From a virus: a DNA stretch of 45,961 nucleotides. The translations under genes were made by a program, and so were the position numbers. Below, piece by piece: positions 1,310 through 43,092 of this stretch; within the stretch, counting starts at the first letter, position 1; each line of letters starts with the position of its first letter. The DNA is taken from positions 14,656-60,616 of the IMG/VR virus record IMGVR_UViG_3300030061_000136; one strand, written 5' to 3'. The notes below the pieces were generated by a model, which searched no databases, was not told the DNA's origin, and saw only the letters and a list, made by a program, of their open reading frames with translations.

Positions 1310-2250
1310 TGTGTTTAATTATTAAATCCGACAATGCTAGTGAGTTAAAACAAAACTTACTGACATCAGCATACCACAACAATTCAGATGGATTTGGTGG
1401 TATGTTTCTTGCTGACGGCAAGATACAAACATTTAAACATCTCCCCAAAGCTGAGGGTGATGTTATATCTCTATGGGATAAATACAAAGATATGAAAATC
1501 CCAATGGGATTACATTTCAGATTCACCACTAATGGTGGCACTAACAGATCAAACTGCCACCCATTTGAAGTGTTGAATATGAAGCAACATAACAGATCGA
1601 TATGGGTTATGCATAACGGTCCTCAATTACCAACACCTATGATTGATGTAGACAAATCAGATACACACCAATATGTGAAGTGGGTATTACGACCAATGTT
1701 AGCACACAATCCCGAACTGTTATACAATTCGGATTGGAGAGATATGATCGAAGAATCTATTGGCTCTGATAAACTATTGTTCCTTGACGGAAGCAATGGT
1801 AAGTTCACAATCATCAACGAAGATCATGGTGAAACAATGGACAATATGTGGCTATCAAATACATACTCAATACAACGTGGTATGGGTAGCGATTATGATG
1901 TCAAGACTGACACCATATCTACACAACCAAAAGCAATCACCTCATACAATCAAGGGTGGTTTCGTGGCATGGATTGGTCGTATGATGACAACACATATGA
2001 CTATGCGAAATGGAGTAGCAAAGCAAACGCGAAAAAATCTGTTGATCTATGTGATGACAATACACCATACAACCTATCTGATTTGGTTGGCTTATCTTCA
2101 GCTGATATATCAGAGGTTGTATACCACAACCCACAAGGCACATCAAATCTACTAAACGATCTGGTCAATGCTGATGAGGGCGATATGTATGACGCACTTG
2201 ACGACTTAATCGAAACACGATCAAACAAAGGGGGCACGAAAAATGACTAG
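1309..2250 (+). CDS. Class II glutamine amidotransferase-like Ntn hydrolase
   Basis: The protein begins Met-Cys, so removal of the initiator Met would expose Cys2 as the N-terminal nucleophile typical of class II (GATase II/Ntn) amidotransferases. Supporting motifs are NSDGFGGMF near residue 25, HFRFTTNGG with a following NCHPF near 65-80, and MHNG near 105. The last ~150 residues are specific to this protein. It starts at the overlapping stop of the amidoligase and runs 8 bases into the next gene, so the three genes form one operon. It likely releases ammonia from glutamine, or cleaves an amide, for the partner amidoligase. That pairing follows known phage and bacterial amidoligase operons; the actual substrate is inference. 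Confidence 0.78.
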   Translation: MCLIIKSDNASELKQNLLTSAYHNNSDGFGGMFLADGKIQTFKHLPKAEGDVISLWDKYKDMKIPMGLHFRFTTNGGTNRSNCHPFEVLNMKQHNRSIWVMHNGPQLPTPMIDVDKSDTHQYVKWVLRPMLAHNPELLYNSDWRDMIEESIGSDKLLFLDGSNGKFTIINEDHGETMDNMWLSNTYSIQRGMGSDYDVKTDTISTQPKAITSYNQGWFRGMDWSYDDNTYDYAKWSSKANAKKSVDLCDDNTPYNLSDLVGLSSADISEVVYHNPQGTSNLLNDLVNADEGDMYDALDDLIETRSNKGGTKND

Positions 2251-4359: not shown

Positions 4360-4555
4360 TAGCATTATAAAGATGAGAATGAAAGAACTTCAAGAAGAAG
4401 TATCTATATTTAACAACAGAATAAATATGCTGACGCATGAGATAGACGCACTAGATAAAGTGTTGCGTGACTATGCAAAGCAGAAAGTAAAAGAGAAGAT
4501 AGAACAAAGGGGGGCACATGGAGAAGAAAAGCAAACCAAAGTTTCCGTCAGATAA
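4346..4555 (+). CDS. Small coiled-coil protein
   Basis: 69 residues, strongly helical with Leu/Ile/Met at heptad positions through residues 8-50, then a Lys/Glu-rich tail. GGAGG lies 8 bases before ATG. Overlaps the upstream gene by 14 bases and the downstream gene by 38. Likely oligomeric; function unknown. Confidence 0.6.
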   Translation: MAVNSSIIKMRMKELQEEVSIFNNRINMLTHEIDALDKVLRDYAKQKVKEKIEQRGAHGEEKQTKVSVR

Positions 4556-5394: not shown

Positions 5395-5837
5395 TGAAAA
5401 CAAACAAGAGACTTATGTTCGTGTATGGCACACTCAAAAAGGGTGAGCGATTGCATGGACTACTATACAAACAAAAGAGAATAGGAACAGCGACAACTGT
5501 CGATAGTAATTTTACTATCAAAGATTTTCTAGATAGTTATCCAATAACATTTAGACACTTCGATAATAAGGTGTGTCGCTACAAAGTAAAGGGGGAGCTT
5601 TATGAAATAAAAGATGACTTTGTCTACGATTCGGTGAAGGCTATGGAATTGAACGCAGGATATGACTTAGTAAATACTATAGTTCAAACAGAAGATGGAC
5701 AAGAGTATATAGCAGAGATGTTTATTGTAGAGGATACACCAGCTAAGTCTGGGAGTTCAGCCGTTCTATCAAATAAACGCGTAATAACAACAGAGAATGT
5801 CAAGGAGTGGACAACAAAGATAAATGAATCCAGATAA
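5394..5837 (+). CDS. Gamma-glutamylcyclotransferase-like (AIG2/GGCT fold) protein
   Basis: 147 residues beginning at the ATG that overlaps the previous stop. The hallmark FVYGTLKKGE loop (residues 8-18) and the later AMELNAGYDL segment, where the family's catalytic Glu usually sits, identify the GGCT/AIG2-like fold. These enzymes cyclise gamma-glutamyl groups to 5-oxoproline, releasing the amine. GGCT proteins are known companions of phage amidoligase and GATase II genes. Here it lies 4 kb downstream on the same strand, consistent with one gamma-glutamyl chemistry module. Substrate unknown. Confidence 0.75.
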   Translation: MKTNKRLMFVYGTLKKGERLHGLLYKQKRIGTATTVDSNFTIKDFLDSYPITFRHFDNKVCRYKVKGELYEIKDDFVYDSVKAMELNAGYDLVNTIVQTEDGQEYIAEMFIVEDTPAKSGSSAVLSNKRVITTENVKEWTTKINESR

Positions 5838-9685: not shown

Positions 9686-10771
9686 ATGAGTAGGCAAGCA
9701 GTACCCTCACATGTACCTAGTGGTCAACCCAAGATAGCCTTTGTGTTTGATTTTCCAAGCACAGATGAGCAACGTCTTGGGCAGATCATGGTTGGTAGTA
9801 CAGGTAAAATGTTTCACAAGATGTGTGAGATATTAGACGTGGATGTGGAGAACTGTTTGCTCACTTATGCTCTCGCTCAGAAGCCAGCACAGGAGAACCC
9901 TGCACATTTCTTTCTTAATAAGAAGAGTTATCAGTCATCTATAAAAGAAAAGAAGTGGCGCTCGAAGTATCCTGTGAATGGCTTCGGCTTCTTGAAAGAA
10001 GAATACGAGAGTGAATTAGAACGATTAGAGAACGAGCTTAACGCGTGTAATCCTAATATCATTATTGCTATGGGGAGTCTTGCGTTATGGGCGCTGACAG
10101 GACTAGACAAGATAGGAACTTACAGGGGAACCATTCTTAGATCTAACCTCACAGGGGAAACCAAAGTCTTACCTACGTTTAGTCCTAGTGCCGTAGTTAG
10201 AAACTACGATTTCAGACCTGTTGTTCTTGCTGATATAAAGAAAGCATTACAGGAATCTGAAACACCAGATATTAAAATAAAAGAAAGAGAGTTATGGATT
10301 GAACCTACATTGGAAGACCTTCAAAAGTTTGAGGCAGATTATATACGGATCAATAACGAAGACAGTCCACTTAGTTTCGACATTGAAACTGACGGAGATT
10401 TTATTACTTGTATTGGTTTTGCTCCATCTGATTCCGTTGCTATAGTTGTACCATTTAAAGATACAAGAAAAGAAAAACAAAATTACTGGACAGATACCAA
10501 GCATGAGCAACAAGCATGGGCTTGGGTTAAAGATATTTTAGAGAACGAAAAGATTACTAAGGTTGCACAAAACCAAACGTATGATGTGTCATGGCTAGCA
10601 TACAAACAAAACATAAATGTTAAAGGTAAGATACACGACACAATGCATGCTCAACATGCACTACAGCCCGAACAACAGAAAGGATTAGGCTTTCTTGGTT
10701 CGATATATACAAACGAGGGTGCTTGGAAAACTATGGCTAAGTTTTCAAAGAGTACTAAAAGAGATGAATAG
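9686..10771 (+). CDS. DNA polymerase I N-terminal fragment: UDG-like domain + 3'-5' exonuclease (part)
   Basis: 361 residues. Residues about 15-195 resemble a family 4-type uracil-DNA glycosylase fold (AMGSLALWALTG, a following RG, then LPTFSPSAVVR). However, the usual GEAPG and HPS active-site motifs are altered (DFPSTDE, SPS), so glycosylase activity is doubtful. Residues 225-345 are the start of a PolA DEDD exonuclease: Exo I Asp232/Glu234 in FDIETDG and Exo II Asp300 in NQTYDVSWL. The family landmark SIYTNEGAWK lies near the end. The gene stops there with TAG. Exo III and the polymerase domain are in a separate gene 500 bases downstream (11279). The two products presumably assemble into one enzyme. 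Confidence 0.85.
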   Translation: MSRQAVPSHVPSGQPKIAFVFDFPSTDEQRLGQIMVGSTGKMFHKMCEILDVDVENCLLTYALAQKPAQENPAHFFLNKKSYQSSIKEKKWRSKYPVNGFGFLKEEYESELERLENELNACNPNIIIAMGSLALWALTGLDKIGTYRGTILRSNLTGETKVLPTFSPSAVVRNYDFRPVVLADIKKALQESETPDIKIKERELWIEPTLEDLQKFEADYIRINNEDSPLSFDIETDGDFITCIGFAPSDSVAIVVPFKDTRKEKQNYWTDTKHEQQAWAWVKDILENEKITKVAQNQTYDVSWLAYKQNINVKGKIHDTMHAQHALQPEQQKGLGFLGSIYTNEGAWKTMAKFSKSTKRDE

Positions 10772-11278: not shown

Positions 11279-12838
11279 ATGGCAAAAATTATAAAGAATG
11301 TAGACATTCAAAACATAGACCTAGATTCTGAGCAAACTCTATGGACATATTGCGCGTTAGACTGTGCAGTAACCCATGAGATTTGGCAGAAAATCAAAAC
11401 AGAATTAGACGATGAAACATTAGGCACATACAACTTCGAGTTGGATAGCCTCAAGCCTGCTATGGCTATGATGCTAAAAGGTTTACGTGTAGATTTAGAA
11501 GCAGTAAAAAATATGCGTGCCCCCTTGAAGAACGCGCGTTTGAAATTAGAACGTATGCTTAATTTGTTTTCCAATGCGGCAACAGGTAAAGATCTAAACC
11601 ACGCATCTCCCAAACAATTACAGAACTTATTCTACTTACACTTAGGCATACCTAAAGTTATGTCCTATAAAAAAGGTAAGCAGAAAATATCAACAGATCG
11701 TGAGGCGCTAGAATACTTACGCGAAAATTACCCACGAGCAAAACCTTTTTGCAATGCTATTCTTGCGTTGCGTGATATCGACAAACAACTTGCTGTGCTA
11801 GACACAGACAGGGATAACGATAATAGAATACGTTGTTCTTATAATGTGGCAGGTACAGAGACAGGTCGTTGGTCTTCTTCAGAAGCGCCTTGGCGCACAG
11901 GAACTAATCTTCAAAACATAACAAAAGATTTGCGCGAAATATTTATACCCGATGAAGGTATGACTATGTTCTATGCAGACTTAGAGCAAGCTGAATCACG
12001 TGTGGTTGCTTATCTAACAGGCGATGAAAACTATATCAATGCTTGTGAGAGTGGTGACTTGCATACCACTGTGGTTAAAATGGTTTGGAAGAACATGGGT
12101 TGGAGCGGTGATCCTGCACAAGAAAGACAGCTAGCCGAGAATCCTTATTACTTACAGTTTAGTTTCAGAGATATGTGTAAACGCGCAGGTCATGGTACTA
12201 ACTATGGTTTGTCTGCTACATCTTTAGCTAGACATCTAAAGATTAAAGTAGCACATGCTACAAGATTTCAACTACTATATTATGGTGGTGTGGTTGCATT
12301 AGAATCAGTTAACAGGTGGCACCAGAAAGATCCTCGAGCTGGTTTCGATGAGCTTCTAGCATATGGTAAAGTATATGGTGATAAGGTTAAATACCTGGAG
12401 GTTCCTGGCGCATTCCCTGGAATACGCAAGTGGCACGACACTATAGCAAATGAGTTGTTAAATACTGGAACTCTAACTACACCGCTGGGTAGAAGGAGAC
12501 AGTTCTGGGGCAGATTAAACGATGCTACTACTTTGCGTGGTGCTATTGCTTATGTACCTCAGTCCACTATTGGTGACCTATTAAACCTAGGTTTATATAG
12601 AGTATGGGATGAATTAAAAGATGATAATGTACAGGTTCTAGGGCAGGTACACGATGCTATATTAGGACAAGTTCCTACTGAAAAGGTAGATGAACTCATG
12701 CCTAAGATTATAAACTGCATGACTAATCCAATGGTTGTGCATGACAGACAATTAGTTATTCCTTCTTCTGTTGAAGTGGGAGACTCATGGAAAAATTTAA
12801 AGACATGGAAAGGGGGGCACAGTGACGCGAATATATAA
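11279..12838 (+). CDS. DNA polymerase I C-terminal fragment: Exo III motif + polymerase domain
   Basis: 519 residues with its own AGGAGACAAAAGCA site. It begins just before the missing exonuclease motif Exo III (Tyr24-x3-Asp28 in YCALD) and continues through the family A polymerase. Motif A is ADLEQAESRVVAYL (Asp234). Motif B/O-helix is RDMCKRAGHGTNYG (Arg297, Lys301, Tyr309). Motif C is QVHDAILGQ (His458, Asp459). In the O-helix the residue aligning with E. coli Phe762/T7 Tyr526 is His305, and the usual HDE is HDA. All catalytic carboxylates are present, so the polymerase should work. Proofreading would need residues from the separately encoded N-fragment. The 3' end overlaps the DUF3987 gene by 17 bases. 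Confidence 0.93.
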   Translation: MAKIIKNVDIQNIDLDSEQTLWTYCALDCAVTHEIWQKIKTELDDETLGTYNFELDSLKPAMAMMLKGLRVDLEAVKNMRAPLKNARLKLERMLNLFSNAATGKDLNHASPKQLQNLFYLHLGIPKVMSYKKGKQKISTDREALEYLRENYPRAKPFCNAILALRDIDKQLAVLDTDRDNDNRIRCSYNVAGTETGRWSSSEAPWRTGTNLQNITKDLREIFIPDEGMTMFYADLEQAESRVVAYLTGDENYINACESGDLHTTVVKMVWKNMGWSGDPAQERQLAENPYYLQFSFRDMCKRAGHGTNYGLSATSLARHLKIKVAHATRFQLLYYGGVVALESVNRWHQKDPRAGFDELLAYGKVYGDKVKYLEVPGAFPGIRKWHDTIANELLNTGTLTTPLGRRRQFWGRLNDATTLRGAIAYVPQSTIGDLLNLGLYRVWDELKDDNVQVLGQVHDAILGQVPTEKVDELMPKIINCMTNPMVVHDRQLVIPSSVEVGDSWKNLKTWKGGHSDANI

Positions 12839-15896: not shown

Positions 15897-16862
15897 ATGT
15901 CAGTATTTAAAGGAAGAGAATATTATAAACCATTTGAATATCCGTGGGCATTTGAAGCCTACGATCAACAACAGAAGATGCACTGGTTACCCAGTGAAGT
16001 TCCATTACACGAAGATGTAAATGATTGGAACAAGAAAATGAATGACGCAGAAAAGAATTTGGTTAAACAAATTCTAACATTCTTTACGCAAGGTGATGTA
16101 GATATTGCACAAGCCTATATGGATGTGTATATACCCATGTTCAAAAAACCAGAAGTGCGCATGATGTTATCCGCTATTGCTACATCGGAGGCTAACCATG
16201 CTCACAGTTATTCTTTATTAAATGATACTATAGGTATGGATGATAGAGAGTACAGAGCATTCCAAGAGTATGCCGAGATGGCAGACAAACATAACTATCT
16301 CTGGGAAAGTAAAGGGGGCACGGAAGAACAAAAGATCATAAGGGATATGGCTGTGTTCTCTGCATTTGGTGAAGGCTTACAGTTGTTTGGTTCATTCATT
16401 ATGTTATTAAACTTTCAAAGGTTTGGTAAGATGAAAGGCATGGGGCAGATAGTTGCATGGTCAATACGTGATGAGAATCACCACGTTGAAAACATGATTA
16501 AACTTTTACACACCGTGCTAGATGAGAAGCCACATATCTGGAATGATAAATTTAAGAAGTCACTCTACGATATATGTAGGGATATGGTAACTCTTGAAGA
16601 AAAGTTTATTGACCTGGCATTCGAACAAGGACCAGTTCAAGGATTAACACCACAAGAAGTTAAGAACTATATACACTACATGGCAGACAGAAGATTACTT
16701 CAGCTAGGTTTAAAACCTAACTACGGAGTTAAAGAGAATCCACTTGAGTGGGTGGACTATATTGTTAATGGGCAGGCACACGAAAACTTCTTTGAAACAA
16801 GAGCGACTGAGTATGCAAAGGGAGCAGTTCAAGGAGATTGGAGTGAGGCATTTACCTCTTGA
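15897..16862 (+). CDS. nrdB: Class I ribonucleoside-diphosphate reductase, small subunit
   Basis: 321 residues, normal length. Metal ligands and radical Tyr can be aligned: Asp67 in QGDVD, Glu98/His101 in EANH, Tyr105 seven residues after Glu98, a Glu in FGEGLQLFGSF, and Glu/His in DENHHVEN. The site therefore looks like an intact dinuclear-metal tyrosyl-radical type. AGGGGAGAC precedes ATG, 12 bases after the nrdA stop. Contains one in-gene copy of GGGGGCAC (16314). The -35 of the following promoter begins within the stop region. Confidence 0.93.
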   Translation: MSVFKGREYYKPFEYPWAFEAYDQQQKMHWLPSEVPLHEDVNDWNKKMNDAEKNLVKQILTFFTQGDVDIAQAYMDVYIPMFKKPEVRMMLSAIATSEANHAHSYSLLNDTIGMDDREYRAFQEYAEMADKHNYLWESKGGTEEQKIIRDMAVFSAFGEGLQLFGSFIMLLNFQRFGKMKGMGQIVAWSIRDENHHVENMIKLLHTVLDEKPHIWNDKFKKSLYDICRDMVTLEEKFIDLAFEQGPVQGLTPQEVKNYIHYMADRRLLQLGLKPNYGVKENPLEWVDYIVNGQAHENFFETRATEYAKGAVQGDWSEAFTS

Positions 16863-16887
16863 CAAATCTTATATCATTTGATATAAT
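16859..16887 (+). promoter_or_regulatory. Perfect consensus sigma-70 promoter
   Basis: TTGACA (16859-16864), exactly 17 bases, TATAAT (16882-16887). This is the only fully consensus rightward promoter found in the window. The expected start near 16894 leads into a region without a credible gene that ends in a terminator. Confidence 0.9.
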
Positions 16888-16893
16888 AACACT

Positions 16894-17015
16894 AACAACG
16901 GAGACAGGGGGGCACAAAGAACCTTACTTCTTCTAGATGCAATATTTAGAAACAGTTTGGGGAACCACTTCCACAACCGTACAAAGGGCTGATCTTAGGG
17001 TTAGCCCTTTTCTTT
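16894..17015 (+). ncRNA. Candidate small RNA between consensus promoter and terminator
   Basis: About 120 bases delimited by the consensus promoter and the hairpin/T-rich terminator at 16983-17015. It contains an 8-bp hairpin (TTCTAGAT 16931-16938, loop GCAAT, ATTTAGAA 16944-16951), a short GGAA/TTCC hairpin near 16961-16972, and a G-rich 5' segment with a GGGGGGCAC copy (16907-16915). The only ORF, 34 codons from 16938, lacks a ribosome-binding site and runs through the terminator. A regulatory RNA is the best explanation. An mRNA leader for the gene at 17025 with an attenuator is the alternative. Confidence 0.6.
16983..17015 (+). terminator. Rho-independent terminator
   Basis: AAAGGGCT (16983-16990), 12-base loop, AGCCCTTT (17003-17010), followed by TCTTTT. 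Ends the candidate small RNA. Some read-through may feed the gene at 17025. Confidence 0.75.
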
Positions 17016-17024
17016 TGGAGACAC

Positions 17025-17225
17025 ATGAAAAACAAACATAACTATCCACATTCAACAAAGTATGATAGGTTTGCAAAAAAGCTATATCTGTTGTTCAGCA
17101 ATAAATCATTGACTTCTAGGTATAAGTTTGATAGACTCCCAATCAAAGACAAGGACTACTGGAGAGCCTTGGCTGAGATATCAACAAAGGAGAAACTATG
17201 GCATACCCAAGAACTTTCTCCGTAA
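17025..17225 (+). CDS. Small basic hypothetical protein
   Basis: 66 residues, Lys/Tyr-rich, with TTTTGGAGACACATG as start region immediately after the terminator. Overlaps the next gene by 28 bases. Not recognised. Confidence 0.6.
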   Translation: MKNKHNYPHSTKYDRFAKKLYLLFSNKSLTSRYKFDRLPIKDKDYWRALAEISTKEKLWHTQELSP

Positions 17226-17395: not shown

Positions 17396-17411
17396 TTGTT
17401 AAGAGGAATAG

Positions 17412-17433
17412 GCTAGGCTTACTGCCTAGCTTT
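17412..17433 (+). terminator. Terminator at convergent gene junction
   Basis: GCTAGGC (17412-17418), loop TTACT, GCCTAGC (17424-17430), then TTT. It ends the rightward arm. The stop codon of the leftward gene lies inside the hairpin. No T-run follows on the opposite strand, so leftward termination here would be weak. Confidence 0.8.
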
Positions 17434-18064
17434 GTTCTTCAAACTTATAAAAGAAATTAGTATCATCTCCTGCTGTATACTTAGATTTATTTTCCACACC
17501 ATATTCAATAGTTGAAACCTTATAGTCTGGGAACCTCATCTTCTTTGGGGATAAAGACTTATCATAGAATATCACCCTATTATTAGGCTGAGCAGCGAAG
17601 TATCCGTTATCTAATTGTATAATATTAAAAGACTTATGCTGTGTAGGTACTTCAGAATACCCAATATCTGGTATATTATATTCTGGATGACAACTATCTA
17701 TAGTATATAAATACTCCCCATAATAAAAATTCCCGTTAGGAGCCTTGTATTTGCATTTACCCGACCCTACACTCACCTTTTGTATAACTGAGATGTGGTA
17801 GCTAAAACAATCCCAAAGCTCTAGGTCTTCAAGTTCCATCTCTTCCTTCGTCTCTTTCCAGACAAAAGCCGAGATAGGAAGCTTATCATATAAAGCTCCC
17901 GTTTCATATAAGTAGGTCTCGAAATAAAGTGCACGACCTTGAATAGACTTAGCAGTGATCCAGATTCCTGGTTCATATTCACCGTGCCCCCTTTCAAAAT
18001 CATAGAGATACTCCTTTTTAACAAGGACTTCAACGGGCGGAACATTAGCTACAAGGAATGCCAC
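17426..18064 (-). CDS. Hypothetical protein beside lysozyme
   Basis: 212 residues, GTG start overlapping the lysozyme stop (TAGTG). Soluble, rich in Tyr, Glu and Phe, with Gly-x-Tyr turns (NGNFYYGEYLY, DNGYFAAQPNNRV) suggesting a beta-rich fold. It seems to be a conserved neighbour of lysis genes in related phages by my recollection, but I know no function. Contains a GGGGGCAC copy (17984-17991). It is the last gene of the leftward operon, so it may be a late accessory. Confidence 0.65.
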   Translation of the reverse strand: MAFLVANVPPVEVLVKKEYLYDFERGHGEYEPGIWITAKSIQGRALYFETYLYETGALYDKLPISAFVWKETKEEMELEDLELWDCFSYHISVIQKVSVGSGKCKYKAPNGNFYYGEYLYTIDSCHPEYNIPDIGYSEVPTQHKSFNIIQLDNGYFAAQPNNRVIFYDKSLSPKKMRFPDYKVSTIEYGVENKSKYTAGDDTNFFYKFEEQS

Positions 18065-20865: not shown

Positions 20866-22104
20866 ATGGGTAAAACAACAGCAAAAATAATATTAATTGA
20901 TGCATTGAATGCAGTAATTAATAACAAAGGTAACAAAGCCGCAGCTTCTAGAGAGCTAGGTATACCACGAACTACACTACTAGAGAGAATAGAACAAGCA
21001 CAACTACAGGGTATCAAACCCACAGTGGTGCCCCCCGATGCTGAAGCAGCATTAATAGAACAACAGTATGAACATGACTCAGAGATTCGGGAGCTTAAAA
21101 AGAAAGTAGAAGTATTAGCCAAAGAAAATTTGGCGCATCAAAAATTAAAAGATAGTCTTATAAAAGCTGAGACACATGTAGCCAAGCCGCCAAAATGGTT
21201 GACTAAAAATACACCAGCAAAAGGTGCGCCAGGTGTACCTACTATATTCTTATCTGACTTTCACTGGGGTGAAGTTGTAGATGAGCAAGCGGTTAATGGT
21301 ATTAATAAATATGATAGAGAGATAGCATTAAAGAGATTTAAGAACGTAGTAGAAACTACTATTGACTTATGTACGAATCACATGGTCAATCCTAAATATC
21401 CAGGATTGGTCTGTGCTTTGGGTGGCGATATGATATCTGGCGATATCCATGATGAGCTAGCAGAGAACAATGATGGCACTAATATAGAGCATGTCTTAGA
21501 TCTGTTAGATAATATGACATGGGCATTGGAAAGATTTGCTAAAGTTTTCGGTAAAGTATTTGTACCTTGTACCTATGGTAATCACTCCAGAACTTATAAG
21601 CAATATCGCCACAAACAAGCCGCGAAAACTAACTACGATTGGATGCTATATAATCTATTAGCTAGACATTTTAAAAATGACAAGCGCATACAGTTCCAAA
21701 TACCTACAGGCTTTGATACAGTATACAAAGTCTATGGTGTTAACTACTTACTGACACATGGAGATCGTCTCGGTGTGGCAGGGGGCACGGGAATTGTGGG
21801 TATGCTTGGACCGATAGCCCGTGGTGTGCAGAAGATTAAACAAGAATACCACAATAGAAATAAGACTATTGACTACGTATTACTAGGGCACTACCACCAG
21901 TATATATCTTTAAAAGGTACTATTGTTAATGGATCTACTAAAGGATATGACGAGTATGCTTACTCAAATAGATTTACATCAGAGCGACCACAACAAGCGC
22001 TATGGTTTACACACCCAGAGTATGGGGTAACATTCCAAGTTCCTGTAGTAGTTGATGAGCCGAAAGGTTCTAAGTCTAAAGAGTGGGTTAGTTGGCTGTG
22101 TTAA
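20866..22104 (+). CDS. Fis-type HTH fused to calcineurin-like metallophosphoesterase
   Basis: 412 residues from the ATG after CAGGAG. Residues 8-42 form a Fis/HTH_8-like helix-turn-helix (KAAASRELGIPRTTLLERI). A coiled coil (70-105) links it to a metallophosphoesterase domain with all motifs: Asp131-x-His133, GGD (Asp188), GNH (Asn239, His240), THGD (His298) and GHYH (His342, His344). Such proteins hydrolyse phosphoesters, often nucleic acid or nucleotides. The DNA-binding domain suggests action at specific DNA or autoregulation at its own divergent promoter. It is the only rightward gene in the leftward half, and its 3' end overlaps the giant gene by 17 bases. Confidence 0.85.
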   Translation: MGKTTAKIILIDALNAVINNKGNKAAASRELGIPRTTLLERIEQAQLQGIKPTVVPPDAEAALIEQQYEHDSEIRELKKKVEVLAKENLAHQKLKDSLIKAETHVAKPPKWLTKNTPAKGAPGVPTIFLSDFHWGEVVDEQAVNGINKYDREIALKRFKNVVETTIDLCTNHMVNPKYPGLVCALGGDMISGDIHDELAENNDGTNIEHVLDLLDNMTWALERFAKVFGKVFVPCTYGNHSRTYKQYRHKQAAKTNYDWMLYNLLARHFKNDKRIQFQIPTGFDTVYKVYGVNYLLTHGDRLGVAGGTGIVGMLGPIARGVQKIKQEYHNRNKTIDYVLLGHYHQYISLKGTIVNGSTKGYDEYAYSNRFTSERPQQALWFTHPEYGVTFQVPVVVDEPKGSKSKEWVSWLC

Positions 22105-25100
22105 AATCGTAAGGAACATTTAAGTTTGCAGCAGCTTCTACATTATTAAGTATTGCTTTTTTAGGAGATGTCAGTAGTCTATAATCTTTTAGTAAATCTT
22201 TTAAAGCCTCTCGGGATAGTCTATTAGTGTCAATAATTATTTGACCACCTATATCTTGAGAGGCGTTGTGTTTAAATAAATCTTGTAAAATTTTATATAA
22301 TTTTAATTGTCCTTCTCTTTGTTCTGCAAAACTTTTATTAACCATACCACTGTATATTGTTTTATACGCATCGGTAACCCTAGCATTGAATCTACTTTGT
22401 AATAAAGAATTACTTCCAGCATTTAATTTTTCCAATCTTAATAATTCTCTTTCTTTAGAAACTTTAGTAGGACTAAAACCTAGTGCTTGTAAGAAGGCAT
22501 CATATACAGTAGCATCATCTGTTAAAACTGTACCATATCTACTTTCAACTCTACCATCTGCAGCTACGTCAAGAGCTTTCATATAGTTAGTTAAAAATGT
22601 AGGGGTCACAGCGTAAGCAAACTCTTGTAAAGGAAACTCTCCTGTTCTATTATAAGCACCAAAAAAGTTTCTAGAGTTTTGGAATATTATAGCACCTGGT
22701 GCTCCTAAAAATTCCTCAGCTCTTGCGCCTGTAGGGAATCCCATCATTCCTATGAGAGCACGTAGTTGCGCAGATCCAGGAACATTACCAAAAGATAATC
22801 TTCTTTGTACGTCTATGTTAGCTAATGCATTGAATATACCATTCTCAAAAAATTCTGCAAGTCTAGGTCCGCTTACTTCGTTTAACATTTTTCTAAACTC
22901 TGCTCTTGAATCACCGTCTATTCCCGAAACACTTTTACGCATTAGATCTCTTAACCAAGCCACTTCATCCATACCAGGTAATCCTAACAATCCACCAGTT
23001 ATAGCTATCATTATTAATATCTTAGACAAAGCAACCTTACCTGCTGCACCATTTCGTGTAGCTAGTCTAGCCATTAAACTAAACATCTGACTTATATAAG
23101 TTTGGAATAAGAAAAATACAGAACCCCAACCTCTCATGTATTTAGGTCTATTTATTTTACCATAAACACCAAAAGTTTCTTCAATCATTTGAGTAGCCAC
23201 CATTCTAGGTGTAGCCACACCATTGTTTCTTTTCAAAGCTGATTGGAAATCAGCATCACCTTTGAAAAAGTTTACAGCGTTTTCCATAGCATCAGTTTTT
23301 TGCATCATTCTATGTGTAGCAATGTAAGCAGTCAATCTTGCTACTGTTTCCATTGTATTAAAAATACCACCAATAACTGTATTTTCAAATGTTCTTATAT
23401 TTCTTTGCAGTATTTGATTTCTACTAACAGCACCACGACCTTGAGGTATACCAGCTTCATGCATCGCCATACCTTGTTTTATTACACCTGAAAATACATC
23501 AGCAATGGCATCATCTTTTACGTCATTTGGTAATTTATCAAAATCTATAAATACATCTTCATATCTTCTACCACCATAATTTAACATTTTCATAACATCT
23601 TTAAATGCTCTAGTTAATTCAAATGCAGCGGACTGTCTCTTACCAGATATGGTACTTAATATAGGACCACTAAACTGCACGACACTCATTAACTGTAGTA
23701 AAGCTGAAGATACGTTACCTCCTAGGTAATACCAGAAACCTAATCTTCTTAAACCTGCTAGCTCATGCTTAGGATCTTGCACATATTCCCACCATTCTTT
23801 CGAAGCTTTTCGTAAAGTAGCGTCTGGATTTGTATCCGCCTTTTGAGTATTATTAAATGCTTCGGCAATGCTAGGATTAAATCTATTACCTGCTGCAAAA
23901 CTACTGGCGGCTATACCATATTGAGTTAATGATCTTGTAAAGTCTGTGCTAAATCCTGGAACACCACCTTGTTGCTTACGAGGTGTTACAAAAACATTAA
24001 ACCCACCAAGCTTACCATCTTTCATATTTGCGCCTTTTTCTAAAATATTATCTATTTCTTTTCTTACTTCTTTAAATATCGCTTTGTTGGTATCAGATAA
24101 CATACCTGATGCAAAATCTATAGTAGCTAAATCTGCTTGCACATTAGCACGTAATTCTTGTATGTCCACTTCTTTAGTTTCAGATATTGTCACATCTGGG
24201 TTGTTACGATACTTAGCTTCCAACGAAGCTCTTACATCTTTTTCTTCATCTAAAGTAGTTATAGAATACTTTCGCTTTTCAAACATTCTATATTCAATAA
24301 CTTTGCCGTCTTTGTCTTTTACTACAATATAATGACTACCATGTCTTTGCAGAGGAACGTAGTCTGTCTTCTTAAAGTCATCATACTTCTTAAGCTCGGC
24401 AGTTAAGGCAAGTAATCCTGCCCCAGGTGCCCCCTCTTCATCGGGTTTGCCTAATATTGTAGCTATTTCAGAATTTAATATAGTAGCTCGTTCCGCAGTG
24501 ATACCTTGGTTAGCTAAAAATTCTGGGTTGTCAGCAATAACTTCTTGTAAATTTTGTACAGCTGTAGTTAAACGAGCTATATCTTCATAAGTTAAATTTT
24601 CATAATCTTTATCAGTTAATTCTGAAATAGATTTAGTACCATCTAAAAATATTTTTTCATCTAAAGCAATGCCCATGTTTATTCCAGCATTGCCTGTTAT
24701 AAAACTTATTGCTTCATCAAGTTTGTTCTTTGATACTTCGTTTCCTAATAATCCTCTAACAATTTCTAAATGCATAAGTTGCACTGCTTCCATTGCACTT
24801 TCATAAGCATCAGCCACTTCACCATCTAATATTACAACATCACCAGCTTTTACTGTACTATCTGCGCCATCACCATCACGCTCAGCAATAAAAACAATTT
24901 GAGTTTCATTTTCTTTCTTTCTGTATCTACCTGGAACTTGTTGTGATATTTCCATAGCTTTGGTTAATAAACCTGCGGCAGTTGGATTACGCATAACTTT
25001 TAAATATGTTTGTAATTTACTTAAAAATTCACTTTGTAATTGTCTAGTCTTTTGATCTCTTAAATGAACTGCAGTATATAGTCTTTCAAATATTGGATAC

Positions 25101-28100
25101 TTCTTTGCCCATATTCTTGCATGAGAAAATATTCTACCAAGAGTACCCAAACCTTTTTCACTAGTTACACCACGCGCCTCTTCGTTAGCTTCTGACTTAA
25201 TATCATTCTGCATTTCCCTAAATTCTTTTCTCAGGGTTTGTCTATTTCCTGGTATATACGCATCTATATCTGGAGACGAAGGTTCGTCAATATATTCTAA
25301 ACTGTTTTTATAATTAGATTGACTTATAGGGGCATCAGATAAACTACCGAAAGCTAATGTAGCTTGTGTTTCCATTTTTGCTTTACCATATTGTTTAGCT
25401 AATATACTGTTATTTAAACGTATATTATTTTGTTGCAACCTTTTATATTCTGCAACTCTATCTGCATACATACCTTGGTCTATTTGATTGAATATCTCAT
25501 TGCCTGTAGTAAATCCTAATCCTCTCATAGCATTACCAAATGCCATCAAGTAAGCTTTCATTCTTTCAAAGACCTGAGCCAGTAAACCTTTAGCAGCGTA
25601 TTTGTTCGCCATGTAATCTGCAAAAGCAAATGTTATACCTTCTTCTATATATAACTCTTCTGAAGCATTTGGTTGACCAGCATAAGTTTCTTTGATATTA
25701 TATTTTTTTACCCAGACTTTTTTAGAATAATCTTTTAACATCTTCATTTCTTTGTCTGTAAAGAAACCACTTTGGAACATAGCATGCATAGCTTCATGTC
25801 TTAAAGTAGCCATCTGTGAGTTCATAGTAGTTTTTAATCCACCGTATTCACCTTTAGGACTATTTAATACTGATATTATTTGAGGCTTCGTCATGTTTAT
25901 AGCTTCTGTTATAACATCGCGATGTACTGTAAACTTACCTTTGGCTCTAGAATTATCTAACCATCTATTAACAATACTTAAATTTACATATGATAAACCT
26001 AATCTGTCTAACTCATTACGTAAAGCCATATAAATTCGTGGTAAACCTTTTGTAAATTCTTTTGTGTAACCAGGATTAACCATACTCATCACAGCTACGT
26101 CTATACTAAATGGATTATATTTATAATCATCTCTAAATATAGGACCAAATTTTGCGTCTGTGTCATGAATAAATCCTACAACACCGATCTCTCCTTTATC
26201 AAATACTCTAGGATTATAAGAATCTACTTGATCTTCTGGAAGATCGTCTAGCTTTCTCATAGCTTCATTTTCATATACTGTATTAGGATTTCTAAGTACT
26301 GCGTCTCTTATTTCTTTGAAGCTATCACCATCTGCAAGTTTTCTGTTTCTATACATCTTACCTTTTTCTGTTACTTTAATCAGAACAGGAATAGGTTTTT
26401 GAGGATTTAAAGCGCCAGCCCAATTAGCCCTGCCTCTGCCTTCATGGCTTAATACACTAACTAAAGGGCGTTTGCCATCTTGTCTGTCTACTAGTAATTC
26501 TAGGTAAGGAGGAGTTATACCATTATCACTTTCTCTAGCAAAAGCAATTTGTCTTTTCAATTGTCTTGCCATTGTTAAATCAGGTTCTTGTAAAGCTAAT
26601 TTATTAAATGTTCCAGGCATTATATACATAACAGCTAATTCTGAATTATTAGCTGGTTTATTGCCAGGAAAACCTCCATCCATATTCCAGAAAGTGTTGC
26701 TTATATTACCTAAGAAAGTTTGATTTACTCTGGCGCTAAGCATGTTAGCATTTATAAGTCTTTGCTTTTCACTAATTTGTTTTGTCTTAGCATCAGGATC
26801 AGCTTCCCATACTTCTACCACTTTAGTCAAAGCAGTTTCTGGTGTACCTTGATACATAGCAGCAATGCCTTTTCTATTAGGAAATGACTGATGTTTTATT
26901 CTATTTAATTGATCACGTGTTAATGGCTTGTAACCAAAAGAACTATATAAAACATTAAAGTCACGCAATTCTTTTTGAGCAGCAGATATTCTATTTCGGA
27001 AATAGCTTATTTGTTGCGCACGATCTTCTAATGAAATACCTTTTCTATTTATTAAACCCTCTATAGCTTTTTCGTATCCTGTGATTGCGGCTGGCGTGCC
27101 CCCTGCACCTATACTACTAGCTAACTTCTCCATTCTATATCTTCTGTTAATAGCAGGCTCATACATGACATTACTAGAAGCTTCGTTTAATATATCTCTA
27201 GCCTCTACAATATCTTGACGTTGTTTGTCTGATAGTTTTTTAGTTCTTAAATCATCACCTATTTTAGATAATTGACCAGCTATTTTTTCATCTGAATTAT
27301 TTACAATCTCTTCTTGACTGAGAGGGGGCACCGCGGGTGTAACACCGACCTGTTCTTTACCAACCCTAGTAGTTTTATTTTCTACATTGTTTTCTAATAT
27401 ATCATCTAGTAAAGCTCTGCCAACTGTCTTACCTGTGCCTCTTTCTGTAGCAGTATTGTTTAATATCTCATTTATTTTTTGTGCGGTGTATATAGATTTT
27501 CTACCACCTCTAGGAACTTCTGGAGTAAAAGTGCCGTCTGTTGTTTCTTGTAAATAACCTAACTCACCTAGTCTTATTGTTTCTTCTGGTGATATATAGT
27601 TTTGGGAATCTTGACTTTCTGCTTCTATTAACAATGCTCTAGGTCCTGTGCTTTCTAGCATATCAATAGCATTGTCTGTATAGCCTCTACTTTTTAAAAC
27701 TTTAATAGCTTTTTGTCTTTGCTTTTGTGTTAAAGGTTTTACATTTATTTGTTCGAAACCAAGTTTATCAGATATAGGGGTGTCATCAATAACTGCCCCT
27801 GTTTCAGGATTTAAACCTTTTTCTTTTTTAGTCTTAACAGATTTCTTTATAGGATTTAATTGACCAATATTATTAAAGTCTACTTCTTCAAAAGTATTAC
27901 CTGCACCTGGTACAGTATTTTTTAATAATAACGTTTTCTTACCACCTACATTGTATACACCAGCAATTTTATATACAGGTGGTATAGGATTACCATCTTT
28001 ATCTAATACAGGTTTTCCCTTTCTATCTAAAGTTTCTCCATAACCAGTTCTTGTAAAAGTAAAATCTTTATAATCATCACCAAACTTTGCTTTGACTTCA

Positions 28101-29329
28101 TTGTCATCTACAACATTTTTTTGCTCTCCTGATGCTCCTAGATCTACATTCTTAATATCTTTTATCTGAGATCTTGTAGCCACACCACCTATAATACCAA
28201 AAGGACCACCACCTGCAGCACCTGCTGCAGCAGATTCACCTACTTGTTTCCAGAAGTTTTTATCTGTATATAAGTCAGCTAAAGAAGCTTTAATGCTTTG
28301 ATCTTTATACATAGCTCCTTCAATAGCACCAGCACTTGATGTAATTATTTCTTGCGAACCTTCAGCCACAGCCTCACCTAATGATGTTTTACCAATAGAC
28401 TTAGCAATGATTGATTTTGTAGATTGATTTATAGCTTTGTTAACAGCATCTACTCCACCTTTTCCACCCATATCTTTTAACAATTTTCCAACGTTATAAC
28501 CTGCACCAAAAAGTCTTTCAGCCGCTGCGTATGGTAAACCTGCAGCTAAAGATAGACCAGCATGCACGTCATTAAAATCAGTAGCCTCTAGTTGTGCTAT
28601 TCTAGAATCACCAACACCCATACCATAAGCCATACCTACACCAAGAGTTGGATTAATAATACTAGCTGCAAATATTGGAATTGTAGTGACAAGACCTTGT
28701 CCTACGTTATAAGTTAACCATTTATAAAAATCTTTAAATCTAGTTTCAGAACCCATTATCTCTTCAATGGATGTGCTAAATGGTATTATCTCACCATCAT
28801 CTGTTTCGATGTATTGCTTGGCTTGACCTTCTAATTGGTATCTTTGTATGGCATCATTAGTAGCTTTTTCTAAACCTTCTAATCCGACTAGATCAGCTAT
28901 CGTTCCGAGTGCCCCCGCTCCTATAGTCTTAAGACCATGCCAGCCTCCTTTGAGACCTTTCATAAAAGAAGTATCGTTTAAGTCATCTGGATTGTTGTAT
29001 CGTTCTGCACCAACACCATATCTATAGATAAAGCCTTGATCATAAAAACGTTTTTCTAATTCTGGACTTTTTAAATAGCTGCGTATCTCGTCATCAGTAA
29101 AATCAAAAGGAACTGCTACTTGGACAGGACTACCATTGTCCTCGTCTATTTTAACATATTTTACTTTTTGAGATTGAGATTGAGAAGTTGTTCTTACAGG
29201 ATCTCCTGTAAGTTCCATTTGAGAAAGTTGAGTGGCTAAAGATGGGGCAGCAAATTTTTCTGCAGAATCAATTATAGATTGTATACGTGCTTCAGTAGGT
29301 GCTTTATATTCTATTTTATCTTCTGCCAT
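22088..29329 (-). CDS. Giant virion/ejection protein (2413 aa) with zincin motif and PLxRFG-like segment
   Basis: 2413 residues, the largest gene. Seen: a hydrophobic Gly/Ala-rich region (about 200-245, LVTTIPIFAASIINPTLG), a Gly-rich stretch near 370-385, the HEAMH metallopeptidase signature (about 1177-1181), and VPLQRHGSHYIVV (about 1657), which resembles the PLxRFG motif of giant phage/bacterial polyvalent proteins. A further hydrophobic span lies near 2100-2120 (KILIMIAITGGLLGLPG). Length, membrane-like spans and position before the tail genes fit an internal protein ejected with the DNA that may carry a protease into the host. No clear Shine-Dalgarno. Contains four GGGGGCAC copies. Confidence 0.75.
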   Translation of the reverse strand: MAEDKIEYKAPTEARIQSIIDSAEKFAAPSLATQLSQMELTGDPVRTTSQSQSQKVKYVKIDEDNGSPVQVAVPFDFTDDEIRSYLKSPELEKRFYDQGFIYRYGVGAERYNNPDDLNDTSFMKGLKGGWHGLKTIGAGALGTIADLVGLEGLEKATNDAIQRYQLEGQAKQYIETDDGEIIPFSTSIEEIMGSETRFKDFYKWLTYNVGQGLVTTIPIFAASIINPTLGVGMAYGMGVGDSRIAQLEATDFNDVHAGLSLAAGLPYAAAERLFGAGYNVGKLLKDMGGKGGVDAVNKAINQSTKSIIAKSIGKTSLGEAVAEGSQEIITSSAGAIEGAMYKDQSIKASLADLYTDKNFWKQVGESAAAGAAGGGPFGIIGGVATRSQIKDIKNVDLGASGEQKNVVDDNEVKAKFGDDYKDFTFTRTGYGETLDRKGKPVLDKDGNPIPPVYKIAGVYNVGGKKTLLLKNTVPGAGNTFEEVDFNNIGQLNPIKKSVKTKKEKGLNPETGAVIDDTPISDKLGFEQINVKPLTQKQRQKAIKVLKSRGYTDNAIDMLESTGPRALLIEAESQDSQNYISPEETIRLGELGYLQETTDGTFTPEVPRGGRKSIYTAQKINEILNNTATERGTGKTVGRALLDDILENNVENKTTRVGKEQVGVTPAVPPLSQEEIVNNSDEKIAGQLSKIGDDLRTKKLSDKQRQDIVEARDILNEASSNVMYEPAINRRYRMEKLASSIGAGGTPAAITGYEKAIEGLINRKGISLEDRAQQISYFRNRISAAQKELRDFNVLYSSFGYKPLTRDQLNRIKHQSFPNRKGIAAMYQGTPETALTKVVEVWEADPDAKTKQISEKQRLINANMLSARVNQTFLGNISNTFWNMDGGFPGNKPANNSELAVMYIMPGTFNKLALQEPDLTMARQLKRQIAFARESDNGITPPYLELLVDRQDGKRPLVSVLSHEGRGRANWAGALNPQKPIPVLIKVTEKGKMYRNRKLADGDSFKEIRDAVLRNPNTVYENEAMRKLDDLPEDQVDSYNPRVFDKGEIGVVGFIHDTDAKFGPIFRDDYKYNPFSIDVAVMSMVNPGYTKEFTKGLPRIYMALRNELDRLGLSYVNLSIVNRWLDNSRAKGKFTVHRDVITEAINMTKPQIISVLNSPKGEYGGLKTTMNSQMATLRHEAMHAMFQSGFFTDKEMKMLKDYSKKVWVKKYNIKETYAGQPNASEELYIEEGITFAFADYMANKYAAKGLLAQVFERMKAYLMAFGNAMRGLGFTTGNEIFNQIDQGMYADRVAEYKRLQQNNIRLNNSILAKQYGKAKMETQATLAFGSLSDAPISQSNYKNSLEYIDEPSSPDIDAYIPGNRQTLRKEFREMQNDIKSEANEEARGVTSEKGLGTLGRIFSHARIWAKKYPIFERLYTAVHLRDQKTRQLQSEFLSKLQTYLKVMRNPTAAGLLTKAMEISQQVPGRYRKKENETQIVFIAERDGDGADSTVKAGDVVILDGEVADAYESAMEAVQLMHLEIVRGLLGNEVSKNKLDEAISFITGNAGINMGIALDEKIFLDGTKSISELTDKDYENLTYEDIARLTTAVQNLQEVIADNPEFLANQGITAERATILNSEIATILGKPDEEGAPGAGLLALTAELKKYDDFKKTDYVPLQRHGSHYIVVKDKDGKVIEYRMFEKRKYSITTLDEEKDVRASLEAKYRNNPDVTISETKEVDIQELRANVQADLATIDFASGMLSDTNKAIFKEVRKEIDNILEKGANMKDGKLGGFNVFVTPRKQQGGVPGFSTDFTRSLTQYGIAASSFAAGNRFNPSIAEAFNNTQKADTNPDATLRKASKEWWEYVQDPKHELAGLRRLGFWYYLGGNVSSALLQLMSVVQFSGPILSTISGKRQSAAFELTRAFKDVMKMLNYGGRRYEDVFIDFDKLPNDVKDDAIADVFSGVIKQGMAMHEAGIPQGRGAVSRNQILQRNIRTFENTVIGGIFNTMETVARLTAYIATHRMMQKTDAMENAVNFFKGDADFQSALKRNNGVATPRMVATQMIEETFGVYGKINRPKYMRGWGSVFFLFQTYISQMFSLMARLATRNGAAGKVALSKILIMIAITGGLLGLPGMDEVAWLRDLMRKSVSGIDGDSRAEFRKMLNEVSGPRLAEFFENGIFNALANIDVQRRLSFGNVPGSAQLRALIGMMGFPTGARAEEFLGAPGAIIFQNSRNFFGAYNRTGEFPLQEFAYAVTPTFLTNYMKALDVAADGRVESRYGTVLTDDATVYDAFLQALGFSPTKVSKERELLRLEKLNAGSNSLLQSRFNARVTDAYKTIYSGMVNKSFAEQREGQLKLYKILQDLFKHNASQDIGGQIIIDTNRLSREALKDLLKDYRLLTSPKKAILNNVEAAANLNVPYDFNTAN

Positions 29330-30359: not shown

Positions 30360-31235
30360 CTATGCAAACGGTTGGAAACCTAAGTTTGCCGCTACTCCTA
30401 ATCCTTGAATACCAAGACCCATTGCTTGTGAGAATAAGCTTGGTTGTTGTACTGCTGGACCTGTGTATTGTCTGGTCTCACCTGTTGGAACTCCTCTTAA
30501 AATATCTGAGTAGAATCCTAATTGTTGTTTTGGATAATCTCTTTCTTGCATAAATGTAGAGTATCCTAAGTCGAGAGCTTGTTGATCCATTCCTCTCTGT
30601 AACCCACCTAATCCCATTTGCTGTTGGATATCTGCTTGACCCGATTGTTGTTGAGCAGCAGCTGTTGTAGACATACCTAAAGCTGATTGTAATTGAGATT
30701 GTCTGTCTTGTTGTGCTGCTGATAAAGCAGTGTTATATGCATCAGCTTGTGCTTTTGCATATAGGTCACCTAAACCTTGTTGTAAATTTCTTTGACTTTC
30801 TGCCTCTAATATAGCTTGACGTGAACCACCAAATGCTCCAGCACTTGCGGCTTGAGCTGCTATGCCTTGATCACTTATTTGATTTTGTCTTCTTAATTCT
30901 CTGGCTGCAATGTCTGCTACGTTTTTGTTGTAGTCAGTCATGTAGTCACCTACACTTGTCAATGCGGGTGCCCCCGCTGCGGTCGCTGCTGTGTATGCTT
31001 GACCTTGTTGCGTTTGTCCAATGCCTCGTTGTGCTTGTGCTTGTTTGATTGCTTGCTCTTCCATACTACTTAAGCCAGCAAGCCTAGGTCCTGTGTATGG
31101 TATAAAATCTTCTTTTGCTACATCACCTGCAGTTGCTACTAAAGACTCAGCAGCTTTTTCCATGTACTCTGGAAGTCTTATTTGGGTAGTAGAATCTTGT
31201 CCTGCTTGTTTAGTTCCGAATAAAAAATCTAACAT
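30360..31235 (-). CDS. Ala/Gln-rich ejection-type tail protein
   Basis: 291 residues. The centre (about 75-215) is a long Ala/Gln-rich helical region (AAGAPALTS, ASAGAFGGSRQAILEAESQR). The ends are Gly-rich (FSQAMGLGIQGLGVAANLG). The GAFGGSRQA pattern is familiar from internal/ejection proteins of marine podoviruses and SU10-like phages. Probably part of the trans-envelope conduit together with its neighbours. Confidence 0.65.
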   Translation of the reverse strand: MLDFLFGTKQAGQDSTTQIRLPEYMEKAAESLVATAGDVAKEDFIPYTGPRLAGLSSMEEQAIKQAQAQRGIGQTQQGQAYTAATAAGAPALTSVGDYMTDYNKNVADIAARELRRQNQISDQGIAAQAASAGAFGGSRQAILEAESQRNLQQGLGDLYAKAQADAYNTALSAAQQDRQSQLQSALGMSTTAAAQQQSGQADIQQQMGLGGLQRGMDQQALDLGYSTFMQERDYPKQQLGFYSDILRGVPTGETRQYTGPAVQQPSLFSQAMGLGIQGLGVAANLGFQPFA

Positions 31236-32877: not shown

Positions 32878-32894
32878 GGGGGGCACGCGCAAAA

Positions 32895-35277: not shown

Positions 35278-35294
35278 TTGCCGTGCCCCCTTTC

Positions 35295-38219: not shown

Positions 38220-38588
38220 CTATCCGCTAAAGTTTGCGTATTCCACAACTTTAGCACGTTCTGCCGCTCTTTTCGTTGCTACATCAGAAGGTACAGCGGT
38301 TCCACCTTCTGCTGCTCTGACCACCATCCAGTCAGTTGAAGCAAGATAAGCTCTCGCTGTTTCGTTGATTGCTTTCTGATCAGCGAATGCATCTTGTTTG
38401 TCCATATCAGCTTTGACTTTTGCCCAAGTAACAGCATCTGGCTTAGAGCCAAAAATAGCTGTGCCGTTAGAGTCAGCGCCAGATACCCACTTAACTTGCG
38501 AATTAAACTCCGCTTCGGTAGAGGGGGCACCATTTATGACAAACTCGAATGAGCCGATCGATTGTATTGCTTGTGCACAATCTGCCAT
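38220..38588 (-). CDS. Tail-fibre assembly chaperone-like protein
   Basis: 122 residues. The C-terminal RAYLASTDWMVVRAAEGGTA-type segment followed by VPSDVATKRAAERAKV is the common 'L--TDWYV-R--E-G---P--V...R' motif of phage fibre assembly proteins. Paired with the gene at 37881. One antisense GGGGGCAC copy at 38523. Confidence 0.7.
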   Translation of the reverse strand: MADCAQAIQSIGSFEFVINGAPSTEAEFNSQVKWVSGADSNGTAIFGSKPDAVTWAKVKADMDKQDAFADQKAINETARAYLASTDWMVVRAAEGGTAVPSDVATKRAAERAKVVEYANFSG

Positions 38589-38598
38589 TGTTTACTCC

Positions 38599-39072
38599 TT
38601 ATAGTATCACCAGTGTTCCGCCACTGGCTATGTTTATTGTTTGTCCTGAGGACACTGTTATAGGACCCACTATACTCGCATTTTCAGATGCTGCAATAGA
38701 AAGTCCTCCCGTCAAAGTTTGTACATTTCTATACGCGCCTTGAATACTTGTTAGTTTCGCAGCAGTAACTGTTGCGTCACTTGGAGTACCTATGTCTAAA
38801 GTATCTCCGAATATCTGTCCAGAAAATGTTGCATCACTTGCTGGTGCAGATGTAAATGCTATTGTACCAGATGTTGAGCCCGCTGTAAAGGCTGTTCCTG
38901 GTACTTGATAGACACCATTTATATGAATCATTAGCGATGCTAGTGAACCTATTGTTTGTGTGGTGCCCCCTACAGCTATCGTAAACTGTGTGGTGGAACC
39001 ATTAAAGCTTCCGCTAATATCGTCAATTACTGAAAAATTTCCCTGGACTGCAGGGTTTCCGATGTATCCCAT
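38599..39072 (-). CDS. Tail-fibre/adaptor protein (MGYxGNP family)
   Basis: 157 residues. Starts MGYIGNPAVQGNF, central beta domain (GSTTQFTIAVGGTTQ, LMIHINGVYQVPGTAF), ends with NVQTLTGGLSIAASENASIV and a repetitive beta C-terminus. A paralogue of the 41786-42223 product, sharing both ends. Probably a fibre-to-tail connector or fibre shaft. Confidence 0.7.
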   Translation of the reverse strand: MGYIGNPAVQGNFSVIDDISGSFNGSTTQFTIAVGGTTQTIGSLASLMIHINGVYQVPGTAFTAGSTSGTIAFTSAPASDATFSGQIFGDTLDIGTPSDATVTAAKLTSIQGAYRNVQTLTGGLSIAASENASIVGPITVSSGQTINIASGGTLVIL

Positions 39073-42597: not shown

Positions 42598-43092
42598 TTA
42601 CAATGCCACAGCTAAAGCTATAGCGAATCCTTTCGTTGCTGATGCACCAACATCTACACCGTTTACAGTTGTTACTTGTAAATCAGCTAATGCGTTAAAC
42701 ACACCTGAACCATCACAAGAGATAAAAGCATCTCTTGCTGCAGGAACAGTAAATGTTGTGCCACTGCCTACAGTAAAAATCAAACTGTTAGCAGTATTGT
42801 TTTGTACCAAGTAAACGTTTTCACGCGCTGGTATAGTTACGGTACAAGTGCCCCCTGGTGAACCAGTGAAGTTAAGGACAAAATTTCTTCCGTCTTCATC
42901 TGCATAAGATGTAGGGTTACTTGTAAATGTTAGAGTATGTGAAGTTCCTGATAAACTAACAGTTGCAAAACCTGTTATTTTATTTTCTAAACGTTTTAAA
43001 TTGTCATTAGTTTGATCACCCCAGGTTCCATCATTTTCACCTGTGGTCATTAAACGAATGTTTAATCCACCACTACTCCAAGTAGATGCCAT
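42598..43092 (-). CDS. Tail-fibre-like protein (GENDGTWGDQTN family)
   Basis: 164 residues. The N-terminal LNIRLMTTGENDGTWGDQTN block with following NLKRLENKITGFATV is a widely conserved start of marine phage fibre/structural proteins (TGE-AGTWG--TN-NL). Beta-rich body, Val-Gly-Ala C-terminus. Virion fibre or shaft. Confidence 0.75.
   Translation of the reverse strand: MASTWSSGGLNIRLMTTGENDGTWGDQTNDNLKRLENKITGFATVSLSGTSHTLTFTSNPTSYADEDGRNFVLNFTGSPGGTCTVTIPARENVYLVQNNTANSLIFTVGSGTTFTVPAARDAFISCDGSGVFNALADLQVTTVNGVDVGASATKGFAIALAVAL

Follow-up and report, generated by a model that had tools for sequence, protein, structure and literature searches.

Chi sites are octamers that are read by RecBCD/AddAB, and phages that carry recombinases and no RecBCD inhibitor over-represent Chi, whereas inhibitor-bearing phages avoid it (PMC3784561). 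The octamer described here resembles Chi in being asymmetric, G-rich and over-represented and in lying in coding DNA in both orientations, and Chi is likewise enriched in some phages (PMC3784561). It is unlike Chi in that it changes within the phage lineage, and the likeness is one seen in the phage sequence. We know of no counterpart, in Chi systems, of an RNA that carries the octamer.

Stoperators of the Cluster A mycobacteriophages are also dispersed asymmetric sites, with one at the strongest promoter and a motif that drifts with the phages (PMC6550527). Unlike stoperators, the octamer shows no orientation bias beyond background, is mostly intragenic and has a copy inside a predicted terminated RNA, and no repressor was recognised. 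The nick sites of tf, T5 and phiKMV are comparable in that about ten or more short sites are dispersed, with one-base variants among relatives (PMC3517423). These sites lie on one strand only, whereas the octamer occupies both strands, and a nick-site reading was therefore ruled out.

Among phage RNAs, sRNA1 and sRNA2 of the Pseudomonas phage PAK_P3 are small non-coding RNAs of ~100 nt, as is the RNA predicted here, and sRNA2 likewise has a short segment that is conserved in relatives (PMC4933390). The PAK_P3 RNAs were measured by RNA-seq, whereas the present RNA is predicted, is kept across a large lineage and is tied to a genomic octamer. Descriptions of short RNA genes in virulent phages are rare, and we know of no short phage RNA tied to an octamer that is selected across a whole phage genome.

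A predicted small-RNA gene behind nrdB

The window, i.e. the whole stretch of DNA that was analysed, comprises 46 kb of a 60,616-base IMG/VR virus record. A sigma-70 promoter lies at the end of nrdB (Table 1), with a TTGACA box (16859-16864) and a TATAAT box (16882-16887) separated by 17 bp and a TG preceding the -10 box, and it scored 12/12 in the promoter scan. This exact arrangement occurs once in the window, against 0.02 expected from dinucleotide shuffles. The original prediction had called it the best promoter in the genome, which is true on spacing only, because two further sites in the whole 60.6-kb genome, at genome position 23045 (+) and reverse-strand position 55404, match both hexamers just as perfectly but with spacers of 16 or 18 bp.

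The predicted terminator consists of a 12-bp stem (16983-17010) followed by TCTTTT and lies ~90 nt past the likely +1 near 16894, as had been proposed. The hairpin that had been noticed between promoter and terminator is also present, with 9 bp instead of 8, and it covaries in relatives (see below). The fold of the predicted RNA is more stable than that of shuffled sequences (z = -3.7), and a search of Rfam 15 gave no family above the gathering threshold for it. An ATG at 16937 opens a frame of 34 codons that runs through the terminator. Since this frame has no Shine-Dalgarno sequence and is often interrupted in relatives (ATGTAA in several, with lengths from one codon upward), we regard it as non-coding, in agreement with the earlier view that the segment holds no usable ORF.

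With its own promoter, a terminator and no conserved ORF, the locus is well supported as a small-RNA gene of a marine phage family, transcription being deduced from these signals. Judged from the sequence, the arrangement is that of a type-I 3'UTR, in which the promoter lies over the nrdB stop and the predicted RNA ends at the nrdB terminator. Because this terminator abuts the Shine-Dalgarno sequence of the following ORF, transcription may also read through into 17025.

Table 1. Features of the nrdB locus and octamer copies in the window.
Feature	Position	Strand	Remark
Octamer GGGGGCAC	2230..2237	+	
Octamer	4510..4517	+	
Octamer	11517..11524	-	Antisense to polA polymerase-domain gene
Octamer	12813..12820	+	
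nrdB (ribonucleotide reductase small subunit)	15897..16862	+	Constant upstream neighbour
Octamer	16314..16321	+	Within nrdB; G009 still has the core
Sigma-70 promoter TTGACA-17-TATAAT	16859..16887	+	-35 box overlaps nrdB stop TGA (16860-16862)
Predicted non-coding RNA, ~123 nt	16894..17016	+	Ends deduced from promoter and T-tract
GGGGGGCAC	16907..16915	+	Contains octamer GGGGGCAC (16908-16915)
9-bp hairpin	16931..16951	+	Compensatory changes at 4/4 varying pairs
Intrinsic terminator	16983..17016	+	Common to nrdB and predicted RNA
Shine-Dalgarno GGAG (17017-17020) and conserved 66-aa ORF (17025-17225)	17017..17225	+	Directly 3' of terminator
Octamer	17984..17991	-	In ferredoxin gene
Octamer	21028..21035	-	Antisense to HTH-metallophosphoesterase gene
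Octamer	21781..21788	+	
Octamer	24427..24434	-	
Octamer	27096..27103	-	
Octamer	27324..27331	+	
Octamer	28909..28916	-	
Octamer	30968..30975	-	
Octamer	32879..32886	+	
Octamer	35283..35290	-	
Octamer	38523..38530	+	
Octamer	38963..38970	-	
Octamer	42848..42855	-	

Conservation of the unit and of the G-motif

Relatives were fetched by nrdB and then by DNA polymerase and the HTH-metallophosphoesterase. Distinct regions 3' of an nrdB with at least 79% identity were counted as in-lineage; sampling of these relatives is uneven and they are not independent. The unit, in which a promoter is followed by GGGGG(G)CA[C/G] and a terminator, was found behind nrdB in 66/66 distinct in-lineage relatives, 65 of which were detected by a pattern of promoter plus G5-6-CA[N] within limits; the 66th (L357) has a longer leader. 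Together with the covarying hairpin and a terminator that varies and is always there, this count strongly supports the small-RNA reading of the original prediction. The unit was absent from all 70 regions behind more distant related nrdB genes (HTVC019P-like pelagiphages and others). Across IMG/VR, a pattern of promoter plus GGGGGGCA retrieved this lineage and also unrelated contigs, and the unrelated contigs showed no octamer enrichment. Separately, the unrelated phages L387, L396, L397, L401, L422, L428 and L411 carry TATAATTGGGGGGG(A/T)AAAGGGGGGGCA(A/G) directly 3' of a -35/-10 pair, a second case of a G-rich start of the transcribed region that is conserved, here with no enrichment of the octamer.

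How much of the RNA is conserved depends on the subgroup. Subgroups A/B, to which the window belongs, share ~60 nt of RNA body, and in their central hairpin all four varying pairs change on both sides, with 97% of cells paired and a covariation score of 0.34; shuffling gave 0.18, and sliding gave no more than 0.17. The remaining subgroups lack this body, and their RNA amounts to roughly (A)AGGGGGGCA[C/G] followed by a terminator hairpin. The predicted length ranges from 51 to 123 nt across subgroups, and the only RNA segments present in all of them are the GGGGGGCAC G-motif near the 5' end and the terminator, the stem sequences of which differ freely among relatives. The motif lies at +3 to ~+22 in most relatives and at ~+75 or more in a few. 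L005, L008, L121 and L357 have ~50-110 nt extra between promoter and G-motif, with motif and terminator intact. As body, stems and leader all vary and the G-motif stays, it is the G-motif on which selection acts.

Folding predictions pair the G-run with the RNA tail GCUUUUU or, in A/B, with CUUCC in many forms of the RNA, and give it a median unpaired probability of 0.34. Pairing with the tail could also suggest that the short RNA is the premature-termination product of a leader attenuator of the 66-aa ORF, with the G-motif as a regulatory leader segment, and in the relatives read the terminator does stand directly before the Shine-Dalgarno sequence of this conserved ORF. No conserved antiterminator alternative is apparent, however, the terminator stems vary freely, and attenuation leaves the genome-wide octamer (see below) unexplained; we hold such an attenuator to be very unlikely. 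Antiterminator pairing of the G-run with the 3' arm of the terminator is possible in some forms and absent in others and was rejected.

The octamer is dispersed across the phage genome

The window has 19 copies of the octamer contained in the G-motif, GGGGGCAC, where 0.25 would be expected and the maximum among 100 shuffles was 4. Its 24 copies in the whole genome correspond to 79-fold enrichment, and it is the most over-represented octamer there and in most relatives. Lineage-wide, octamer enrichment is ~40- to 140-fold relative to zero-order composition, the core GGGGGCA (or its complement) lies inside the top octamer of 23/23 long contigs, and the density of this core is 0.3-0.8 sites per kb. 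The reversed control CACGGGGG occurs 0-1 times in these 23 contigs. GGGGGCAC was not found in 286 kb of other phages carrying related nrdB, and no comparable motif was seen in Kuura, MW202489, PaP2 and MW202713. In a literature search for the octamer, none of the matches listed was relevant.

Octamer copies use all three codon phases and both strands, which rules out an origin in a conserved peptide. By simple ORF calls, on which the orientation tests are based, copies in genes are 157:69 sense to antisense, against ~3:1 for background G-rich words (GGGCA), and 18% of the octamer copies are intergenic; near start codons the ratio is 22:22, as expected without codon bias. As this orientation bias does not exceed background, the octamer was rejected both as an mRNA decoy and as a put/nut-like antitermination site. 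The copies are spaced more evenly than random placement would give, with a combined Z of about -6.6 over the 23 long contigs, which are partly related. Individual sites are conserved above control words, with 5/15 alignable sites kept between G000 and G002 (9% of control 7-mers) and 10/15 between G000 and G003 (27%), yet turnover is high and single antisense sites are lost between clades. Phase neutrality, orientation neutrality and turnover make it unlikely that the dispersed sites act at the mRNA level; they look like DNA-level signals that are orientation-neutral and maintained by density.

These data bear directly on the action first proposed for the RNA, namely pairing of its G-segment with transcripts carrying GUGCCCCC. 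The copies named for this purpose, at 11517, 21028 and 38523, do exist in mRNA orientation, and they are three of the 18 further copies in the window, a set far above chance. Moreover, size, a 5' G-rich segment and a terminator are typical of base-pairing sRNAs, which would suit an ordinary sRNA acting in trans on mRNAs of the host or the phage. The pairing orientation, however, is not clearly enriched in genes or near start codons, complementary phage target sites are not kept between clades, and the phage DNA filled with the motif is left unexplained. The data therefore do not support an RNA that acts by pairing with a few antisense copies in mRNAs, and an ordinary trans-acting sRNA seems to us decidedly improbable.

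The RNA motif and the genomic octamer

The core of the octamer is always present in the RNA, on the sense strand. This universality sets the RNA copy apart from every other copy, and the link between RNA and genome is strong for the core. For the last base it is suggestive. In the clade of G009, G010, G014 and G026 the RNA has CAG and the top genomic octamer also ends in CAG, whereas CAC is the top genomic octamer in most other contigs, with a looser last base in some. Genomic last bases (A/C/G/T) number 97/756/23/38 with C-type RNA and 51/50/106/37 with G-type RNA, in pools of overlapping, non-independent loci whose G-type members mostly come from one clade. G025, in which the RNA changed independently from C to G (CAG), has a genome that did not follow (A10 C9 G3 T7). 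It is this exception, together with the non-independence of the loci, that keeps the last-base link suggestive. That the invariant part of the RNA, GGGGGGCAC, shares the scattered octamer is a hint that the RNA may be a copy of a signal in DNA.

The same identity could arise if a DNA-binding protein of the phage recognised the octamer as its site, the promoter copy acting as an operator or roadblock in the manner of stoperators and the RNA letters being incidental. An asymmetric dispersed site with a copy at the strongest promoter and a motif that drifts with phylogeny recalls the Cluster A mycobacteriophages, in which, on the other hand, stoperators mostly have one orientation relative to transcription (PMC6550527), unlike the 157:69 seen here on a background of ~3:1. 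The copy sits at ~+3 to +12 in most subgroups and a conserved HTH protein (20866-22104) is available, but in some relatives the copy is at ~+75 or more, the other strong promoters seen in the genome are without the motif, and no integrase or repressor was recognised among the proteins scanned. The A/B body with its covarying structure further indicates that the RNA matters in A/B. We consider an operator unlikely.

Hybrids of rG:dC are stable, and G-runs nucleate R-loops in ColE1 RNA II and at mitochondrial CSB II. The G-motif could accordingly be a seed that anneals to GTGCCCCC in DNA, in R-loops or single-stranded replication intermediates, and for example marks or primes replication. Such pairing would explain the identity of RNA and motif, the orientation neutrality and the CAC-to-CAG shift. 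Against it, the 3' end of the RNA is a terminator hairpin left unpaired, so that it cannot serve as a direct primer, no RNA-guided protein was recognised, and G025 is an exception. Annealing to DNA has, in our judgement, a low probability.

A proposed Chi-like signal and its possible RNA mimic

Our main reading, to which we give a rough probability of 0.35, is that the octamer acts as a signal of the Chi kind and that the predicted RNA mimics it; in this we infer that the RNA is transcribed, that the signal is read single-stranded, that a factor reads it and that the RNA serves as a mimic. The octamer, lying in both orientations across the phage DNA, would be recognised in single-stranded form by a machine that processes DNA, and the RNA would present identical letters to the reader as a soluble mimic that titrates or locks the machine. 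The reader might be of the host AddAB/RecBCD type or belong to the phage's replication-recombination module, where the PD-(D/E)XK exonuclease, Sak4 and the HTH-metallophosphoesterase are candidates; the lineage encodes a Sak4-like protein and a PD-(D/E)XK exonuclease. The wider proposal is that the functional part of the RNA copies the phage's own recognition octamer, as a mimic or by pairing with the complement, and would form with the dozens of selected sites a system of self-recognition or of recombination/replication control; we regard this as plausible, though short of an even chance.

Several observations weigh against the Chi-like reading. The 40- to 140-fold enrichment and a core density of 0.3-0.8 per kb are far above those of Chi, which has about 0.2 sites per kb and few-fold enrichment, the observed/expected ratio of E. 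coli Chi in its host being about 2.3 (PMC3784561). An inhibitory mimic combined with many Chi sites would be unusual, because RecBCD-inhibiting phages avoid Chi (PMC3784561). The G025 genome, which did not follow its RNA to CAG, also counts against this reading. Furthermore, the G-run may not be freely displayed, since it is predicted to be paired with the RNA's own tail or with CUUCC, and no reader of the octamer was identified in this analysis. Scans of genome contigs with DNA polymerase and Sak4 as queries found no relative, and INPHARED gave distant relatives only (DNA polymerase 39% to Caulobacter phage Kuura, Sak4 27%).

Should the RNA indeed imitate a DNA signal, phages would control DNA processing in a way that has not been reported so far. 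Were it no mimic, the octamer by itself would still be unusually strong for a signal dispersed over a phage genome, and it might reveal the Chi-like motif of an uncultured marine host. In both cases the one-base shift from CAC to CAG provides a natural mutant pair.

Neighbouring genes

The HTH-metallophosphoesterase gene (20866-22104, +) has its own sigma-70-like promoter and lies inside a late block on the - strand. Its product combines an N-terminal Fis-type HTH with an SbcD-like metallophosphoesterase and is conserved throughout the lineage; homology does not mark it as a repressor, and its AlphaFold model is poor outside the N-terminal HTH (mean pLDDT 48). The protein is a candidate reader of the octamer, as yet unproven. 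The segment 20793-20843 has a sigma-70-like promoter on each strand (- strand 11/12, + strand 10/12), and the pair is apparently divergent.

Separate ORFs encode the exonuclease domain (9686-10771) and the polymerase domain (11279-12838) of DNA polymerase I, with two small ORFs, one of them DUF3310, between the halves, and the split is conserved in the lineage. Amidoligase, weak glutamine-amidotransferase and gamma-glutamyl-cyclotransferase-like genes are found at 35-2250 and 5367-5837, the first two conserved across subgroups; from their sequences, they may form a gamma-glutamyl modification set. The early block contains a tRNA-Cys (GCA) at 3243-3316. Where the two gene blocks converge there is a ferredoxin gene (phrog_3704; 17426-18064), which follows a strong stem-loop (17410-17432).
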